From a virus, in the IMG/VR virus record IMGVR_UViG_3300000228_000019, positions 1 to 37,309 of that record: a stretch of 37,309 nt of DNA. The stretch is one strand, 5' to 3'. Both the position numbers and the translations under genes were made by a program. Below the pieces are notes generated by a model. That model was not told the DNA's origin. It was given only the letters and a program-made list of their open reading frames with translations, and did no database searches. Below, one piece after another: positions 7,387 to 25,741 of the stretch; the first letter of the stretch is position 1, and every line of letters begins with the position of its first letter.

Positions 7387-9990
7387 TTAAAGATGATGGA
7401 ATTCTTTTTTCTTGCTCCAAGGTTCATCAATTTCAGACCGTTCAAATTCAATGTCAAGCGGCACTATTATCCACGGGTGTTGTTCTCTTATTTCTTTTGT
7501 AGCGATCAACTTACTCATGTTACACCAACTCATGTGTTCATCAGGGTGTATGTCCCCCAAACAACAATCGTGGATCTGTCCAATGAGCATGGACTTCATA
7601 CGTTCATCAAGCATACGCTGTTCCAGATTAGTTATAGCCCATATCAAGCAATGAAATGCGGTGCCCTGAACTGGGTAGTTGCATATATCGTTGCGTGTAA
7701 GCCAGCCATGACATCTGAATCCAAACATCTGCTCAATATAACCTTTTTCAAGGTAGCTCTTAAATGCTTTCTCTTGCCACGCTTTTACAGCTTTGAATCT
7801 GTTCCAGAATCGTTGCTCTGTTCTCTTTGTGTGGTTTTCAAAATCCTCTTGTGCTGTTGACATTGACTTTATAACACCCTTTCTTCTTAGGTGTTCATAA
7901 ATATTAATCTCACCAACTTTCATTTCTTTCAGTTGTGGGAAAATACCTCTTGCAATTGATCGGTAATAAGACCCATAGAACAGTGCAAATACCATGCTAT
8001 TCTTTGCAACAAACCTGATATTCTTTGCTTCCTTCTTATCAATTGCTGCCCATTCATCTTTTGTAAAAGCAAACCAGTCCATAGCTTGGTCACGGTGCAT
8101 GTCAGATGTAGGATCTTCAATGTACTTTATCAGTACAGGATCCTGCGTGATACAAGCGATGATACGCACTTCCATTGATCCATAATCCCAGTCTACAAGC
8201 TGATTGCCGAAAGAAGGAACTATGCCACCTCTGGTGATATTCATTGCTTCAGTATCACGTACTGGTATGTTCTGAAAGTTTGGACTACTTGAGCTTCCTC
8301 TATATGTAGCTACAGTATGCAGGTCAAAGAAGGGATGCAGCTTGTTATCATCTTCTATCTCCCGCAGGAACTGCCCCAGATACGTTCCTTTTATCTTTTC
8401 CAGCTTGGAAATCTTTGTCTTTTCCTTTGCTATCGGAGTATTTAATGATGCCAGTACCTCCGCATCCACACATGCATTGCCCCCTGCTGTCAATTTACCT
8501 TTGGGTAGTTTTAAAACATTGAAGAACAAATCGGCAAGATCAGCAGATGAATTGAAATTGATCGGTCTCCTACGCTCTTTGAGGAACTGTTGCGCTTCTG
8601 GGAAGTTATGGAGTGCTTCCTTCATTGTATTGATGCGTTGTTCCAACTCAACATTCATATCCTCATAATACTTACGATTAAGAGGAATACCGTTTTCTTG
8701 CAATGTAGCTAATGTTTTGAGGCCGCCCATAAAGAACTTGCGAGCGGATTCCATTTTAGGACGATCACTAAGCTCTTCCTCTTGCTCTTCCTGTAGTCTG
8801 TATGTCAGTAGGCTGTCTATGCTATTGTATAGCAGTAAATCGTTGAGGGGAGCTTCCATAACTCGGTTATATGGCGTATCTTTGCTCTCGTTTTTCAGAT
8901 ATTTTTCAATACTTGAATCATAATCAGGAATTCCCCAACGAATCAATGCTTGGTACTTTAGTCCTGAAAACTCTGATCTGTTGTCCAATATGTGTGCTGC
9001 ATTCATTGAGCACCAATGCATTGGATTAATGTCGATACCAAAGAACTCTCGGCTCCACATATCCTCGAACTTGAGGTTGTGGGCTACCTTTTTGATAGCT
9101 TTGTCAGTCAATATCTCTGCCCACACATCACCAATTTGATCTATCTGGCTACTATTAAAATGGTTTCTATATTGATAAGGAATACCATAAGATGTCTCAA
9201 AGTTGGTGCAAAAGCTCATTGACGCTATTCTATGTCCTTTACGATAAGGTTTTAGACCTGTTGTCTCATAGTCAAATGCAAAGAACTCAGGCTTATCATT
9301 CAACACTTTTTCTAAGACATTCATAACCTCATCAAAGTCTTTGATTATCTTTGCACCTTTCAGTGACATAGCTTCTGGTTTATCATTACCTTTTGACATT
9401 CGTATTGCGTGAGATAAATCTCTACCGAATGTATTTTGGAAATGGTCATCTTTTTCCATACGAATTACATACGCAGGATGATACAACGGAAACACCCATG
9501 CCTGTCTTTCAACATCAGGTATTCTTAATCCTCTCCAGCGTTCTGCTGTAGTTACAGATTCACGTTCATGGTAGTAACTGTAAATAGCATCAGTACCCAT
9601 TAACCATATAAATTTAGGTTTGAGTTCAGTGATTGTCCTCTTTAATCTGGAACTACAATGCTTAACATGGGCTTTTGTAACCTTAGCAGCATGACACCCC
9701 ACTGCATTTGTTTTCCAACAATCTCTTTCAAGATCAATACCCATAATTTTTAGCTTTTCTTTAAACCATTTGCCAGTATCACCTGATAGAGGTATACCTG
9801 CTTTGTCATCAGCTTCACTGGGCGCCTCAGCAACAATGAGGATTCCCTTCTCTCCTTTACCTGTATATCCCATTTGAGGAGTTTTACAAGTCTTAGAAAG
9901 ACCGCACTTTTCACACTCTCCACTGTTAGGTCCATTTATCCCAACAGAAGAGAGTTCTTCATCACTAAAGAACCCTCTCAGTTTTGCCAT
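7387..9990 (-). CDS. DNA polymerase I fused to an N-terminal uracil-DNA glycosylase-like domain
   Basis: This 867-aa replicative polymerase has three parts. Residues 1-200 resemble family 4 uracil-DNA glycosylase: likely Fe-S cysteines (C26, C29, C35, C91, C99, C112), AEAPSEADDKAGIPLSG (54-70), TNAVGC (94-99), and the HPAY motif (171-174). A DEDD 3'-5' exonuclease follows, with FDYETTGL (D240, E242), HNLKFED and a YNSID motif. The family A polymerase domain has motif A VDWDYGSMEVR, motif B RFVAKNSMVFALFYGSYYR and motif C QIHD (H807, D808). There is no 5'-3' exonuclease; the separate FEN gene can supply it. UDG-polymerase fusions are known in some phages. CAAGGAG precedes the ATG. Confidence 0.94.
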   Translation of the reverse strand: MAKLRGFFSDEELSSVGINGPNSGECEKCGLSKTCKTPQMGYTGKGEKGILIVAEAPSEADDKAGIPLSGDTGKWFKEKLKIMGIDLERDCWKTNAVGCHAAKVTKAHVKHCSSRLKRTITELKPKFIWLMGTDAIYSYYHERESVTTAERWRGLRIPDVERQAWVFPLYHPAYVIRMEKDDHFQNTFGRDLSHAIRMSKGNDKPEAMSLKGAKIIKDFDEVMNVLEKVLNDKPEFFAFDYETTGLKPYRKGHRIASMSFCTNFETSYGIPYQYRNHFNSSQIDQIGDVWAEILTDKAIKKVAHNLKFEDMWSREFFGIDINPMHWCSMNAAHILDNRSEFSGLKYQALIRWGIPDYDSSIEKYLKNESKDTPYNRVMEAPLNDLLLYNSIDSLLTYRLQEEQEEELSDRPKMESARKFFMGGLKTLATLQENGIPLNRKYYEDMNVELEQRINTMKEALHNFPEAQQFLKERRRPINFNSSADLADLFFNVLKLPKGKLTAGGNACVDAEVLASLNTPIAKEKTKISKLEKIKGTYLGQFLREIEDDNKLHPFFDLHTVATYRGSSSSPNFQNIPVRDTEAMNITRGGIVPSFGNQLVDWDYGSMEVRIIACITQDPVLIKYIEDPTSDMHRDQAMDWFAFTKDEWAAIDKKEAKNIRFVAKNSMVFALFYGSYYRSIARGIFPQLKEMKVGEINIYEHLRRKGVIKSMSTAQEDFENHTKRTEQRFWNRFKAVKAWQEKAFKSYLEKGYIEQMFGFRCHGWLTRNDICNYPVQGTAFHCLIWAITNLEQRMLDERMKSMLIGQIHDCCLGDIHPDEHMSWCNMSKLIATKEIREQHPWIIVPLDIEFERSEIDEPWSKKKEFHHL

Positions 9991-12161: not shown

Positions 12162-12190
12162 ATTATAGAGTAAAATTTCAAAACCTTAGA
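12162..12190 (-). promoter_or_regulatory. Candidate promoter before the T-fold-like gene
   Basis: In the 45-bp gap after dpdA the minus strand carries a perfect TATAAT about 22 bases before the start codon. The upstream AAGGTTTTGAAATTTT block matches the one before the TATAGT at 7356, suggesting a shared phage promoter type. No good -35 hexamer is seen. Confidence 0.45.
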
Positions 12191-13118
12191 ATAATTGTGA
12201 GGTGCGAAATTTTGATTTCCAAGGACGAGGATATGGTGGAGTATATTTTTCTAAGTCCAAGTAGAACTGCAGGTTAAGTTGATCCCTTAATTCATGTCTA
12301 TTGCAAAGACCTGGTTCAATAATAACCTCAACTAAATTATTGGATTTATCTGCCCACTGCTCACCTTCAACCACTTTGTAACCCTTTTCCACTGTCTTAA
12401 ACTCTGAATTACCTACAACAAATCCTTTTTCTTCAAAGTAGTTTGTAAAGTAGTCCTGGTGCATACCCACTACATTGTCAAAATGATCGGCATTGCTTTT
12501 GCTTTTAGGTCTTGATGAAACGAACACAGTGTTAGGTGATTTGGTATACACGTATTGCCCATCCTTCTTATATGGTATTATGACAATACCATACTTGCCA
12601 AACATTACCCATGAAGTTGAATCAACAGAGTACCAAGGAAATTCTGCAATAATGCCGGGTGCAGTCATTGCAAACCCGTGTATTTTACGAATAGGCTCAT
12701 ACGAAGGTTTCTTGCAAATGTAAGAAAATACTGGCATACCGATGTTTTGATACCACGTGGGTTTGCTTACTTCTTGACCTAGTCCACTGACACCTATGTA
12801 TTCATAATTATCAACGTATTTTTTAAACCATGAGAAATCTTCGCCTGAGTGATATACAGGCAGTGGTGTGATTTTATAAACATCTTCCAAATGTTTTTGT
12901 ACTTTCCACGATAATTCTGGGTTATGAATTACGTCCACTGATACATATACATCCAACAAATGTTCATGCTTTTGAATAAAAACACCATAGGCATCAACAT
13001 AGTTCCAAAATTCATCAGTTTCATAATAACCAAAATCTAGTTTTCCGTGTTGCTTTTTCAAAATTTCACGAACAAACAAAGAGTGTGCTCCAGAATCCAC
13101 CATCAATTTAGATTCCAT
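12186..13118 (-). CDS. dpdA: DpdA-like 7-deazaguanine DNA transglycosylase (TGT superfamily)
   Basis: This 310-aa protein has hallmarks of phage TGT-like DpdA proteins, which exchange guanine in DNA for a 7-deazaguanine. It has VDSGAHS (7-13) in the place of the TGT DSGGFQ motif, YVSVDV (58-63), VYHSGED (88-94), GVSGLG (109-114), HGFAMT (147-152) and PWYSVDSTSW (161-170). D8 and D166 are candidate catalytic aspartates by analogy with TGT. GGAGGTTAT precedes the ATG. It overlaps the glycosyltransferase gene by 16 bp and ends a folE-radical SAM-glycosyltransferase-dpdA run. A tRNA-directed TGT role is less likely because the phage also carries FolE, QueD and QueE. Substrate specificity cannot be read from sequence. 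Confidence 0.78.
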   Translation of the reverse strand: MESKLMVDSGAHSLFVREILKKQHGKLDFGYYETDEFWNYVDAYGVFIQKHEHLLDVYVSVDVIHNPELSWKVQKHLEDVYKITPLPVYHSGEDFSWFKKYVDNYEYIGVSGLGQEVSKPTWYQNIGMPVFSYICKKPSYEPIRKIHGFAMTAPGIIAEFPWYSVDSTSWVMFGKYGIVIIPYKKDGQYVYTKSPNTVFVSSRPKSKSNADHFDNVVGMHQDYFTNYFEEKGFVVGNSEFKTVEKGYKVVEGEQWADKSNNLVEVIIEPGLCNRHELRDQLNLQFYLDLEKYTPPYPRPWKSKFRTSQLF

Positions 13119-21530: not shown

Positions 21531-21577
21531 GAATAAGTCTCTTTTTAACTCCCACACCTCATCTTCAGTGATTATCC
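21531..21577 (-). repeat. Remnant duplicate of the primase 3' end
   Basis: These 47 bases match 22265-22313, the coding end of the primase, with a 2-base deletion and few mismatches. On the minus strand the remnant still reads TEDEVWELKRDLFHE then stop, against TEDEVFELKRDLFIK in the intact gene. The two copies bracket the HNH-type gene, whose own stop lies inside the remnant. Confidence 0.85.
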
Positions 21578-22194
21578 CACACACGAGGTCTATTTTTATA
21601 AACTTCTATGGATTGAAAAACGGCTTTTTTTACATCCCAACCATGCTTTATTCTGTCGTGAATTGTTTTATAATGCACATTGGAAATACAAGCCCATTCA
21701 GTTAATGGTCTAGTTATACCATCTATAGTTAGAAAAGTAGTATTTCTGCGATTTCTGGCTTGCTCCAATGATGTGGCCCATTTACAGTTACTGGGTTCGT
21801 AGTTGCCGTTATTATCAATTCTTTCAATATAAAATCCTTTTTCTTTTATACCCATATCAAATAAAAAGTTTTCAAATTCCATCCAACGATTACAAATTAA
21901 AATACCCCTACCGCCATAATCTTTATAATGTAAATGATTAGGATTGGTGCATCTATCAATCATAGCTTCCCAAGAATACAAAGTCCTTTCGTACCCTTTT
22001 GGCCAACGCCTATTTCTTACTGATGCTAATTCAGCAGATAAACAACCACACGATTTTGTTACCCCTTTTCGCAATCTGTAACCTGCTAATAACCTAATGG
22101 TACCACATTTGCATTTACAGGTGTACATTTTGTTTCCTAATTTTACTCCTGCATATTCAACAACTAACCATCTACCAAAATTTTTTCCAATCAT
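21565..22194 (-). CDS. HNH/AP2-type homing endonuclease-like protein
   Basis: The 209-aa protein has an N-terminal zinc ribbon (C26, C28, C30 and SCGC at 48-51), a nuclease-like core (DYGGRGILICNRWMEFENF, 92-110, then IERIDNNGNYEPSNCKWAT, 123-141) and a C-terminal HTH segment (PLTEWA to RIKHGWDVKKAVF, 163-193). This is a common free-standing mobile endonuclease type in phages. GGAGGGATACACT precedes the ATG at 22194. It is inserted immediately downstream of the primase and is flanked by a duplicated primase tail, which fits homing into a conserved replication gene. Confidence 0.85.
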   Translation of the reverse strand: MIGKNFGRWLVVEYAGVKLGNKMYTCKCKCGTIRLLAGYRLRKGVTKSCGCLSAELASVRNRRWPKGYERTLYSWEAMIDRCTNPNHLHYKDYGGRGILICNRWMEFENFLFDMGIKEKGFYIERIDNNGNYEPSNCKWATSLEQARNRRNTTFLTIDGITRPLTEWACISNVHYKTIHDRIKHGWDVKKAVFQSIEVYKNRPRVWDNH

Positions 22195-22255
22195 AGTGTA
22201 TCCCTCCATTAGTCCATACATCATATCATCGTGATGAACTCAATGCAATAGGAAT

Positions 22256-23179
22256 TTATTTTATGAATAAGTCTCTTTTTAATTCAAACACCTCATCTTC
22301 AGTGAGATTATCCGGGTCACCATCCGATAGCTGAATAACTTCAACGTAAGGAACAACTGAGGATATAGCGTATGCTAAAGATTCGGCTTTGGAAGTGGCA
22401 TCAGCATCAAATAAGACATAAGCCTTCCTAATACTCTTTGCTCCAAGTATTTGTATTTGTTCATCAGTCACCTGAGTTCCAAACGTAGCAACAGCTTTTG
22501 TACCGATACGCCAAGCATCAAGTATACCTTCTACCAGTATCACTTCATCCTTGACTTCATCAATACCATATAACGTATGCTTGGCTTGCTGAATACAAAG
22601 CTCAATTGGGCAGTTCTTGTATGGAACTTCCAATTTTCCAGTAGTATCTCTTGCTACATAGGTTACTAATTCATGGTTCAAATACACAGGAATAACAACA
22701 CGGAATTTCCAATCATCACAGGTAGGGCCTACTGCCATGATGTCATACTTACGTTCAAGAAATGAACGGTCATACTTTCTGGATGCTAAAAACTTATCGT
22801 GTATCGGTAGAAAATTATTTGAGGTGTTTCTCGGTAGCATCGTTACGGATGCATGTGTTCTCTCTTTGCGCATCAAGTGCGAAAAGTCACGGGTGATAAA
22901 GGTAGATACTACTCCTTTTGCACGGGAGTATGAACTGTTATCTATTTCTTGTACAAGAGAAATAGCACCACCCTTTTTCCCACATCTAAAACAGGAGAAC
23001 ATCTTCGATTCAAGATTGACGCCTAAGTGAGTTGACTTATCCCTACAGAAAGGACAACTTAAACCGATCCATCCCACAGATACATTCTTGTGTCCGGCTG
23101 TGGCATAATCTACCCCACGGTCATCCAGATACTCCAGAATGTCAAATAACTCCAAGTCTACATCATTTTCCTTTTTCAT
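22256..23179 (-). CDS. DnaG-type primase
   Basis: From the ATG at 23179 the protein has 307 aa. An N-terminal zinc-binding domain carries C42, C45, H51, C63 and C66 (CPFC and CFRC). A Toprim domain follows, with VILVEGILDAW, where Glu binds metal, and VLFDADATS, the DxD pair. The order and spacing fit compact phage primases. It supplies primers for the DnaB-type helicase fork. The gene overlaps the upstream 61-aa gene by 17 bp. Its last codons are repeated 730 bp downstream, beyond the HNH-type gene. Confidence 0.88.
   Translation of the reverse strand: MKKENDVDLELFDILEYLDDRGVDYATAGHKNVSVGWIGLSCPFCRDKSTHLGVNLESKMFSCFRCGKKGGAISLVQEIDNSSYSRAKGVVSTFITRDFSHLMRKERTHASVTMLPRNTSNNFLPIHDKFLASRKYDRSFLERKYDIMAVGPTCDDWKFRVVIPVYLNHELVTYVARDTTGKLEVPYKNCPIELCIQQAKHTLYGIDEVKDEVILVEGILDAWRIGTKAVATFGTQVTDEQIQILGAKSIRKAYVLFDADATSKAESLAYAISSVVPYVEVIQLSDGDPDNLTEDEVFELKRDLFIK
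22265..22313 (-). repeat. Primase 3' end, parent copy of the flanking repeat
   Basis: This is the intact copy of the sequence repeated at 21531-21577. Similarity stops exactly after the Phe codon of the primase C-terminus; the final codons differ (IK here, HE in the remnant). Confidence 0.85.
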
Positions 23180-23348
23180 GGAAATCTCTCGTCCACTCAA
23201 GAAATAACTGTTTTGCCAAATATTTGTCATAACCAAATTGTTCCATAAGAACCATCGGTGCAGCAAACATGTTTATCTTTCCGCTTTCTCGCAAACCATA
23301 CAAGAAATCAAATACTGCCTCTTTATCCACTTCATCAGGTTTTAGCAT
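23163..23348 (-). CDS. Conserved small phage protein, 61 aa
   Basis: The sequence (DFLYGLRESGKINMFAAP, then GYDKYLAKQLFLEW) resembles a small helical protein found widely in phages next to replication genes, with no function I know of. It overlaps both neighbours (14 and 17 bp), so it is translated with the primase. Confidence 0.65.
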   Translation of the reverse strand: MLKPDEVDKEAVFDFLYGLRESGKINMFAAPMVLMEQFGYDKYLAKQLFLEWTRDFHEKGK

Positions 23349-23764: not shown

Positions 23765-25741
23765 TTATATCCAGTCATTTTCTGAATAGCAAATCATACG
23801 CTCACCAAAATGTTCGATTAAAAACTTATGGGAGGTATCCAAAAAGTCATAAATGTAAACAGCATCCTTATCTTTGGTTTTTCTGAGACCTCTACCAATT
23901 GATTGTAAGGTTTTGATTTCAGATTTTCCTCCAGAAGCACAAATGACAGCATTCAGGTTGGGAATATTCACACCTTCAGTCCACACTGAACTGCATATAA
24001 CACATTTGATATGACCTTCATTTAAGGCGTGTTTCAATTTATTTCTGGATTCTCCATCTGTTGCTCCGTGTACGAACTCGGCATTCACTCCCATGGCTTT
24101 TAGCTGTTCAAGTATCAAATAACCATGATCTAAAATGTTAATCATAATCAGCACAGTTTCATCGGCATCCACATGCTTCTTGGCAGTCTTTGCAATCAAG
24201 ATATTTCGTGCGAGGTTTCTTACCACACCTATGTCATACACTTCATGGTACACTCGCATCTGAGCCATATCGTAATTCTTGGGTACTCTCAATATCTTGA
24301 TTGTAGGTTTAGCCAGAATACCTAATTCTGCTCCCTTGTTGATGGTCATTTCTTCCAGAATAGGACCAATCAATCCTACAGCAGTGAGATAAGCTTCACC
24401 TTCTCTTGGTATTGTTGCAGTTAATCCTAATCGTATGGGAGCAGGTGTCTTTGATAGTACATAAGCGTACTCGGATTTAATGTCCGCAACGTGGTGGCAA
24501 TTATGTACTAAAATCCCTTCAACATAGTAGGTGTGCGCCGCTTCCACTTCGAGGTCATAGAAGGTGCAATACCCTTGATTTCTTTCTGTATCTCCAATAA
24601 TACTTTGGAAAGATTCGTCATTACCTCCTCGTTGGTAAAACTCAACACCTTCCACCCTAATGATTCCAGTTTCATTTTTTTCTTTTGGTCCTGAGTTATT
24701 CTTTCTTTGATTGAATGACTCCATCCGTTCACTTCTATGCCTATTTTTAATATTTGATTTCCTACATCCAGTTTGTAACATGTTGGATAATTTGGAATCC
24801 TTCCCCACCCTGAAACAATCACTTCCATATCCCATCCCAACGTGATTAAATCGTGTCAAGCATTTACCTAAACTTTCCTTAGCAGCAACCCATGATTCTT
24901 CAATTTTTAGTTTGTGGTCTTCTGAACAATATAAAATAACACCATTTGAGAGTGTTATTTTAACTATTCTTTCTAAGGATACCCTATTATGAAACGTATT
25001 TATTACTTTATTTGGGCCACTGTCGGACCAAACAATATCACCCATTGTTAGCGTTTCTATAGGCATATCGCCATAGTAAGTATTGACCATTGTTCCTTTT
25101 GCAAAACATTCGTCTACCACAATTACATCAAATTCGTGCCCATAAGTATCAGCGATAGTTTTAAAGGACTGCCGAGTTGCTATGACAATATCCTTATTAA
25201 TTTCTTTGAAACCATCGCCGTATCTTCCAACACTTTTGAATCCAAACCTTATTGCTTCATCATACGCCTGCATCATCAAATCCTTCTTGTGGCACAACCA
25301 TAAGATTTTAACATTTTCAAACGAGGATAGAATACCAAAGCCAAGAACTGTTTTTCCTGACCCCGTGAATGACACTAGAATCCCTCTGGGCTGATCTAAA
25401 AAGGAATTGATTAAGTGCAGTTGATCTGGACGAAAAGTAATTCCAGGAAGTTCAGGTTCGTACAGCATAATTTCTTCTTGGCTTTGGTCTTTCAAATTTA
25501 TGTCAACATCAATGGATGTGCAATAATCCAAAACGTGTGCGGCTAATCCAGCCCAGAAGAAATGCACACCACCTTTTCCTTTATTCAAGAAGGTCTTTTC
25601 ATATTCTTTACGCTCTTTCTTAAATGGACCTTGTCTCCAGTAAGCTGCTTTGAAGGATAAACAAGGCTTGATGATTGCCGCTAATACTGGACTACACTCA
25701 GCCCATATAGGGTTTTTGATTATAATTTCATGCGCTGGCAT
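23765..25741 (-). CDS. DExH-box helicase (UvsW/T5 D10-like) interrupted by an intein
   Basis: Without its intein this is a superfamily 2 helicase of about 455 aa. Motif I is FTGSGKT (125-131), motif Ia lies at WLCHKKDL (148-155), motif II is VVDE-CHH split by the intein between E211 and C415, motif III is GLTATIPRE, and motif VI is QSIGRGLRK. The intein occupies residues 212-414. Insertion in the ATP-hydrolysis motif means splicing is needed for activity. UvsW/D10-type helicases remodel branched DNA and R-loops and would fit the recombination genes here. Its 5' end overlaps a zinc-finger gene by 22 bp in the preferred annotation; no second helicase of this type is seen. Confidence 0.9.
   Translation of the reverse strand: MPAHEIIIKNPIWAECSPVLAAIIKPCLSFKAAYWRQGPFKKERKEYEKTFLNKGKGGVHFFWAGLAAHVLDYCTSIDVDINLKDQSQEEIMLYEPELPGITFRPDQLHLINSFLDQPRGILVSFTGSGKTVLGFGILSSFENVKILWLCHKKDLMMQAYDEAIRFGFKSVGRYGDGFKEINKDIVIATRQSFKTIADTYGHEFDVIVVDECFAKGTMVNTYYGDMPIETLTMGDIVWSDSGPNKVINTFHNRVSLERIVKITLSNGVILYCSEDHKLKIEESWVAAKESLGKCLTRFNHVGMGYGSDCFRVGKDSKLSNMLQTGCRKSNIKNRHRSERMESFNQRKNNSGPKEKNETGIIRVEGVEFYQRGGNDESFQSIIGDTERNQGYCTFYDLEVEAAHTYYVEGILVHNCHHVADIKSEYAYVLSKTPAPIRLGLTATIPREGEAYLTAVGLIGPILEEMTINKGAELGILAKPTIKILRVPKNYDMAQMRVYHEVYDIGVVRNLARNILIAKTAKKHVDADETVLIMINILDHGYLILEQLKAMGVNAEFVHGATDGESRNKLKHALNEGHIKCVICSSVWTEGVNIPNLNAVICASGGKSEIKTLQSIGRGLRKTKDKDAVYIYDFLDTSHKFLIEHFGERMICYSENDWI
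24500..25108 (-). mobile_element. Intein in helicase motif II
   Basis: The 203-aa insertion begins with Cys (CFAKGTMVNTYYGDMPIETL) and ends HN before Cys, with a block F-like YDLEVEAAHTYYVEGILVHN. A block B-like segment is ILYCSEDHKLKI. These are the four splicing landmarks of a class 1 intein. It splits VVDE and CHH, a typical conserved insertion point. The middle of the in-frame product (about 303-392 of the precursor) is low-quality sequence, because the nuclease is encoded there in another frame. Confidence 0.92.
24508..24840 (-). CDS. DUF559/Vsr-like nuclease nested out of frame in the intein
   Basis: In a frame shifted by one base from the intein lies a 110-codon ORF with the PD-(D/E)xK-type pattern of DUF559/Vsr-like homing endonucleases: TCYKLDVGNQ, then KIGIEVNGWSH, a run of Lys/Gln, and ESLGWKVLSFTNEEV. 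It could start at TTG 24840 or ATG 24828; GGGAT-type ribosome sites are weak. Either it is translated separately, reached by frameshifting, or is a remnant after indels knocked it out of frame. The frame is open across all likely domain residues, which favours recent or ongoing function. Confidence 0.65.
   Translation of the reverse strand: MGWDMEVIVSGWGRIPNYPTCYKLDVGNQILKIGIEVNGWSHSIKERITQDQKKKMKLESLGWKVLSFTNEEVMTNLSKVLLEIQKEIKGIAPSMTSKWKRRTPTMLKGF

Follow-up and report, generated by a model that had tools for sequence, protein, structure and literature searches.

A putative homing endonuclease gene nested in the +1 frame of inteins from phage helicases and clamp loaders, with a shortened copy in a metagenomic virus

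A helicase gene with an intein and a second open frame

The window, i.e., the whole stretch of 37,309 bases that was analysed, is a single metagenomic virus record (IMGVR_UViG_3300000228_000019). An ORF of 658 aa on its minus strand (23765..25741), delineated from the open frame and its profile matches, encodes a SF2 helicase carrying an intein at motif II (DE|CHH). The exteins match the Pfam families ResIII and Helicase_C, and the PHROGs match corresponds to phage DNA helicases. The N-extein (211 aa; 25109..25741, minus strand) ends with VVDE, and the C-extein (23768..24499, minus strand) begins with CHHVAD. Between them, the intein (203 aa; 24500..25108, minus strand), recognized from its sequence and a structural model, runs from a cysteine at position 1 to a terminal HN in the frame of the helicase; its first residues are CFAKGTMV and its last YDLEVEAAHTYYVEGILVHN, followed by the C of the C-extein. 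The sequence-only reading had placed the splicing blocks in frame with the helicase, and they do lie inside the 658-aa ORF, at 25108-24500, with matches to Pfam Intein_splicing (E 3.4e-7, slightly below the curated cut-off) and to NCBIfam intein_Cterm (28.5 bits, above the cut-off of 15.6). In an alignment of 29 inteins including that of the window, C1, F2, G5 and T6 (block A with the nucleophile at position 1), H65 (block B) and V201, H202 and N203 are invariant; the position of T62 is occupied by S in the window, and the junction reads HN|CHH.

The model of the window intein consists of two confident splicing halves separated by a disordered middle. The N-terminal part of the splicing (HINT) domain (residues 1-85; 24854..25108, minus strand) is predicted with pLDDT of about 82-97 per block up to residue 80, the middle read in the host frame (residues 85-150; 24659..24856, minus strand) is mostly predicted to be disordered, with pLDDT blocks of 37-61, and the C-terminal part (24500..24658, minus strand), containing TFYDLEV and the HN end, exceeds 90 near its end. 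The best PDB matches of this model are gp41-1, Mtu RecA and other inteins (Foldseek E down to 4e-7), pointing to a HINT fold. The intein frame is intact, and the intein probably splices.

The same DNA contains a hidden ORF of 110 aa in the +1 frame (24508..24840, minus strand), starting at TTG 24840 or alternatively at ATG 24828, which encodes a catalytic domain of the DUF559/Vsr fold. A TGA stop is present in this frame six codons before the TTG (24856..24858, minus strand). Both frames had been described as open over more than 100 codons, and the helicase and nuclease frames indeed overlap for about 110 codons without a stop in the window, where the third frame is stop-rich. Most of the nuclease domain overlaps the disordered middle of the intein, and its C-terminus overlaps the C-terminal splicing part. 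The proposed similarity to DUF559 and Vsr was also recovered: the ORF matches DUF559 (PF04480) with 40.9 bits (E 2.1e-10) for a curated cut-off of 20.6, and Vsr weakly (E 0.005).

Elsewhere in the window, a free-standing HNH endonuclease gene (21565-22224, minus strand; PHROG 374, E 5.7e-62), likely a second homing endonuclease of this phage, is located directly downstream of a DnaG-type primase gene (22256-23266). The window also encodes a DNA polymerase of family A that carries a fused uracil-DNA glycosylase domain at its N-terminus (7387-9990, minus strand) and a queuine tRNA-ribosyltransferase-like protein (12186-13118, minus strand; PHROG 887), a hint of deazaguanine-type DNA or RNA modification.

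Recurrence of the +1 arrangement

A tblastn search with the nuclease led to 40 phage records, which belong to Vibrio phages, Pseudomonas phage MR14 and Corynebacterium phage phi673. In the eight phage loci that were opened, the nuclease is always one base off the annotated helicase frame, spans 215-263 aa from stop to stop and is missing from the annotation of the public record. From scans of viral contigs, we took the best 80 entries of each of two lists of confirmed relatives (304 and 313 in total), with three loci shared by identifier, and added the 8 phage loci and 6 loci from genome contigs; the latter yielded 16 loci, 10 of which (L096-L105) matched the generic DUF559 part only and were dropped before counting. 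Among the resulting 171 loci, 166 are nested in +1 and 5 are free-standing. After removal of redundancy at 90% nucleotide identity, which also eliminated contigs present under two identifiers, 119 loci remained from the same best-80 lists and added phage and genome loci: 114 nested in +1, 5 free-standing and none with a nuclease fused in frame. The comparison of homologous inteins suggested by the sequence-only reading thus yielded no in-frame nuclease in 119 non-redundant loci. All nested loci present a continuous intein-bearing host ORF, encoding a SF2 helicase or an AAA+ clamp loader; the host frame is open in 114/114 of them and in the window, with no stops of the kind found in fractured genes between the intein halves.

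These counts bear on one alternative, namely that the window had an ordinary intein with an in-frame nuclease, altered by faulty sequencing or by a single pair of indels that compensate each other. The window is known from a single metagenomic record, and no close relatives of it were found in the viral contigs searched; however, independently sequenced isolate phages (Vibrio phages, MR14 and phi673) and metagenomic viruses keep the same frame relation, so that a lone indel pair, which the earlier reading had left as an option, and a sequencing error are ruled out for practical purposes. No in-frame version was seen, and the recurrence of the +1 relation in 114 of the 119 non-redundant loci excludes chance as well.

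The insert could also be regarded as a RNA intron that contains the nuclease ORF. Nuclease ORFs borne by introns are in many cases read apart from the frame of their host gene. They are translated free-standing from the intron, as stated in the available part of PMC3943268. However, the insert leaves the host frame open in all nested loci, intein blocks and a HINT fold are found there, and no Rfam family was matched in the window between 23700 and 25800 at E up to 0.1, which leaves this explanation with a negligible probability.

The five free-standing relatives (L032, L060, L074, L154 and L184) are located just upstream of a helicase-like gene and overlap its start. The helicases of L032 and L074 have no intein at motif II, and motif II of L060 reads as broken. 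These relatives could be the ancestral state or could follow a separate homing strategy beside their target. Four nested elements (L090-L093) are present on contigs binned as bacterial MAGs of Akkermansiaceae, Elusimicrobia, Verrucomicrobia and Riflebacteria, possibly corresponding to prophages or mis-binned viruses.

Domain architecture and fold of the nuclease

An alignment of 46 members reveals invariant cysteines, a near-invariant N-P-M segment and a GGNG turn, followed at the C-terminus by the catalytic core, where YKxD, ExDGxSH and a later D vary little or not at all. The DUF559 cut-off is also passed by the 6 relatives scanned (6/6), and the sequence match to the homing endonuclease I-Bth0305I is weak (E 0.04). 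The Vsr-like fold was read from the AlphaFold model of a relative of the window copy (L010, pLDDT 91.6), whose catalytic domain, the only part used for the structure match list, resembles DUF559 3hrl (Z 13.5, rmsd 1.2 over 89 residues), I-Bth0305I (3r3p; Z 11.8, rmsd 2.4 over 93 residues) and Vsr (1cw0; Z 9.5). From the N-terminus, the predicted order is zinc fingers, a helical segment that we call NUMOD-like from its appearance, and the DUF559/EDxHD (Vsr-fold) catalytic domain. The modelled fold supports the interpretation of the full-length nuclease as a homing endonuclease with an N-terminal DNA-binding half, a role suggested for this half by analogy with other phage homing endonucleases covered in the available text of PMC3943268.

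Selection on the two overlapping frames

Over the 25,760 overlapping codons of the 114 nested loci, the nuclease and host frames contain no stop and the third frame 1,929; the zero for the host frame is in part due to how loci were selected, because the nested class was picked for a long host ORF, with only 5 of the 119 loci falling outside it. A T-ending nuclease codon placed before AA, AG or GA creates a stop in the host frame, which provides a test. Such stop-making T-ending codons amount to 0/5,061 in the nested loci, compared with 115/231 in the five free-standing relatives and 2,683/9,961 in the exteins of the same genes. When synonymous codons were drawn for the nuclease according to the codon usage of the exteins, gene by gene, in 73 loci, the only ones included in this resampling null, about 614 host-frame stops were expected and none was seen, the probability of an open host frame being below 0.05 in 67 of the 73. 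In two mini-inteins without nuclease (L108 and L111), the shifted frames are closed.

Close pairs of relatives show purifying selection on the nuclease frame, which is the more constrained of the two. Substitutions in the overlap at nuclease codon positions 1/2/3 number 5/0/32 in L003/L004, 4/3/20 in L006/L007 and 23/18/72 in L090/L092; the third position, which corresponds to host position 1, therefore takes 32/37, 20/27 and 72/113 of them, while changes in the exteins of the same pairs occur mostly at host position 3. The bias is weaker in L079/L082 (18/29/47, i.e., 47/94 at nuclease position 3) and hard to read in L079/L080, L018/L019 and L035/L046, which have few changes. Mean identity over 5,253 pairs reaches 44% for the nuclease reading and 29% for the host reading of the same DNA, indicating that the host frame is less constrained in the middle of the intein. 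In the clamp-loader group and in the window, conservation is seen over about the last 50 host-frame residues of the intein.

Initiation of nuclease translation

An ATG precedes the first CxxC of the nuclease in 105 of the 112 nested loci that have such a motif, at a median distance of 6 codons. A four-base SD-like motif is present about 5-16 bases upstream of the nuclease ATG in 51/103 testable loci, compared with 5/103 for internal ATGs (Fisher p 1e-13). In the 76 loci for which both intein ends were found, the nuclease ATG lies at a median of 265 bases into the intein and the nuclease stop falls inside the intein in 75. The position of the ATG before the CxxC and inside the intein, together with the SD enrichment, makes internal initiation the best reading, and we infer that the nuclease is translated in this way. 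The SD-like motif is missing in 52/103 loci, so that another route of initiation may act in part.

Among the options of the sequence-only reading, relatives favour the nested one, an overlapping gene with its own start, over a nuclease expressed by frameshifting. In the latter case, a programmed +1 ribosomal frameshift would produce a fusion of the N-terminal intein part and the nuclease, without a start of its own. The uniform frame relation (+1 in 114/114 nested loci) and the 52 of 103 starts devoid of a SD-like motif would fit such a mechanism, but a nuclease-frame stop is located at most 10 codons upstream of the nearest ATG in 61/103 loci (at most 2 codons in 21), leaving hardly any room to shift, and SD-like motifs are ten times more common at nuclease ATGs than at internal ones. 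We consider frameshifting improbable and retain a nested gene with its own start.

Host genes, insertion sites and mobility

The 110 extein sets classified by script comprise 79 helicase-like, 28 clamp-loader-like and 3 unassigned sets, and Pfam detected helicase or clamp-loader domains in the 13 hosts submitted to it. Where the motif was found, nearly all insertions are located directly after the DE of Walker B/motif II. Vibrio phages illustrate the different states of one site: a 356-aa intein with nuclease is present in L003-L005, and the same site in helicases about 77-87% identical to L004 in DNA is either empty (L107, L112) or occupied by a mini-intein (L108-L110). The mini-inteins L108-L111 measure 143-150 aa, the helicase of L111 being 72% identical to that of L004. 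In L110 and L111, there are signs of a second, separate intein at Walker A of the same host gene. Signs of a second intein were also observed in the host genes of L182, with an in-frame HNH match, and of L033 and L135, with weak LAGLIDADG matches.

In several pairs, the inteins are far more alike than the exteins, as homing would predict: differences affect 2/903 bases of the nuclease vs 153/1,239 of the C-extein in L079/L080, 37/789 vs 258/1,098 in L003/L004 and 7/639 vs 65/1,269 in L018/L019. In L090/L092 (113/636 vs 228/1,044), the contrast between intein and extein is not clear. A tree of the catalytic domain (119 rows and 128 columns, L030 being omitted as its core motif is missing and the window being added) has little resolution. 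It places the window with clamp-loader elements, and a jump from a clamp loader to the helicase of the window is a lead only, because the pairing of the window with L121 is weakly supported (92/19).

The nuclease of the window is a shortened copy

Beyond what the sequence-only reading had noticed, the window copy has no N-terminal half. The DNA for the zinc-finger/NUMOD-like half of the relatives, i.e., the DNA-binding region found in most of them, is missing, and the ORF starts inside the first helix of the catalytic domain, lacking the GGNG turn and part of that helix. Two positions invariant in 76/76 relatives are altered, D to N and R to S. The N at the first of them is also present in I-Bth0305I, so this replacement does not by itself prove inactivity. 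No clear SD was seen by eye upstream of the nuclease ATG. When the viral contigs were searched with the nuclease of the window by itself and with the helicase C-extein, no close relative was recovered, the sole match being L106, 30% identical. A second short form was identified in L140, a clamp-loader intein of 196 aa with a 105-aa remnant of the nuclease frame in +1.

The loss of the zinc-finger/DNA-binding half and of two residues common to 76/76 relatives suggests that the window copy is shortened and possibly inactive. The identity between the window and the clamp-loader group (0.52 for the nuclease and 0.36 for the host frame) is close to that within the group (0.53 and 0.37); the window nuclease is thus no more diverged than full-length relatives, which counts against a long decay. 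On these sequence grounds, the window probably harbours a recently shortened and inactive nuclease inside a still intact intein, and the element, having lost the DNA-binding half of its nuclease, may be moving toward a mini-intein. The opposite interpretation, a shortened nuclease that still works as an enzyme or serves another role and is kept by selection, is less probable. The conservation of its catalytic domain at the level of full-length members, the retention of D185, E196, H202 and D211 (CP-T1 numbering) and the existence of L140 would be in line with it; against it stand the absence of zinc fingers, NUMOD-like helices, GGNG and part of the first catalytic helix, the two altered invariant positions and the ATG without clear SD.

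Discussion

From comparative sequence data, we are confident overall that the window and its relatives carry a mobile intein, with the homing endonuclease encoded separately by a gene that lies within the intein in the +1 frame, the window copy being shortened and, on balance, inactive. The host frame would encode a helicase or clamp loader together with a splicing domain that excises itself from the protein, and the middle of the intein would form, in this frame, a disordered linker that chiefly needs to stay stop-free. The overlapping frame would encode a nuclease of about 200-300 aa, usually from its own ATG after the N-terminal splicing half. The nuclease would cut intein-less alleles at the conserved DNA of motif II/Walker B, repair would copy in the intein and the nuclease together, and splicing would preserve the function of the essential protein.

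More broadly, the data point, with somewhat less certainty, to dual-frame inteins as a widespread class: a DUF559 homing endonuclease with zinc fingers, translated from its own +1 start, would be locked to an essential gene, and the unit would have moved between two unrelated ATPase families, the SF2 helicases and the AAA+ clamp loaders, with the conserved DE as its site in nearly all cases. Because frameshifting changes in the overlap hit both proteins, the host would have to keep the stretch open and the parasite would be locked to the essential gene, with the nuclease sequence evolving under its own selection. Inteins are described as self-splicing proteins that either contain an endonuclease in their own frame or lack one; in the present loci, the putative homing enzyme has its own, overlapping gene, and surveys limited to the host frame would class such inteins as nuclease-free. 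The overlap, conserved in more than 100 distinct loci, is a clear case of a long phage gene overlap, for which free-standing relatives, mini-inteins and empty sites offer natural controls. It makes testable how an endonuclease gene can sit within an intein without belonging to it.

Several known systems share parts of this arrangement. DUF559 (PF04480, 3hrl) covers the catalytic domain only, the zinc-finger half and the nested location being outside the family. I-Bth0305I (3r3p), an EDxHD enzyme of a group I intron, shares the catalytic fold, with a weak profile match (E 0.04). It is intron-encoded and has another DNA-binding region than the nested nuclease. Fractured genes, reportedly described in 2009 by Dassa and colleagues, are said to combine split inteins with a free-standing gene for a Vsr-like (EDxHD) homing endonuclease. 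They resemble the present loci in the fold class of the nuclease and in its production as a separate protein between the intein halves; however, their host gene is said to be split in two, whereas the present host genes keep one continuous frame, which the nuclease overlaps.

In large inteins such as PI-SceI, intein and endonuclease share one reading frame and are produced fused to each other (Stoddard, 2014, PMC3943268, in its available part). As here, according to the same text, the intein occupies a highly conserved site of an essential protein and the nuclease is thought to drive homing; by contrast, the +1 frame of the present nuclease necessarily makes it a separate protein. The accessible text of PMC9403480 mentions a DUF559/EDxHD gene among intein genes and leaves the frames undescribed. 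Nothing similar was found in the available parts of PMC6083498, PMC10448857, PMC5050341 and PMC3229294, and the open-access literature searched, as far as its text was available, gave no description of an intein with an endonuclease nested in another frame; such a report may be in print elsewhere. Within that literature, the association of an intein with an overlapping homing endonuclease gene represents a new arrangement.

The closest precedent found, as far as the available text of PMC11855218 goes, is the ShiLan insertion, which is not an intein. That text describes out-of-frame HNH genes in insertions of phage methylases that are neither inteins nor introns and for which splicing is not predicted. 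In both systems, the insertion is free of stops in the host frame and hides a homing-type nuclease in a different one, and the distribution among related phages is patchy. The ShiLan nuclease is, according to the same source, a HNH enzyme with a GTG start and no SD, whereas the nuclease described here belongs to the DUF559/EDxHD type and mostly starts with ATG, with a SD-like motif in half of the cases; and whereas the ShiLan insertion has no splicing domain, the present one is an intein that has its two splicing halves.
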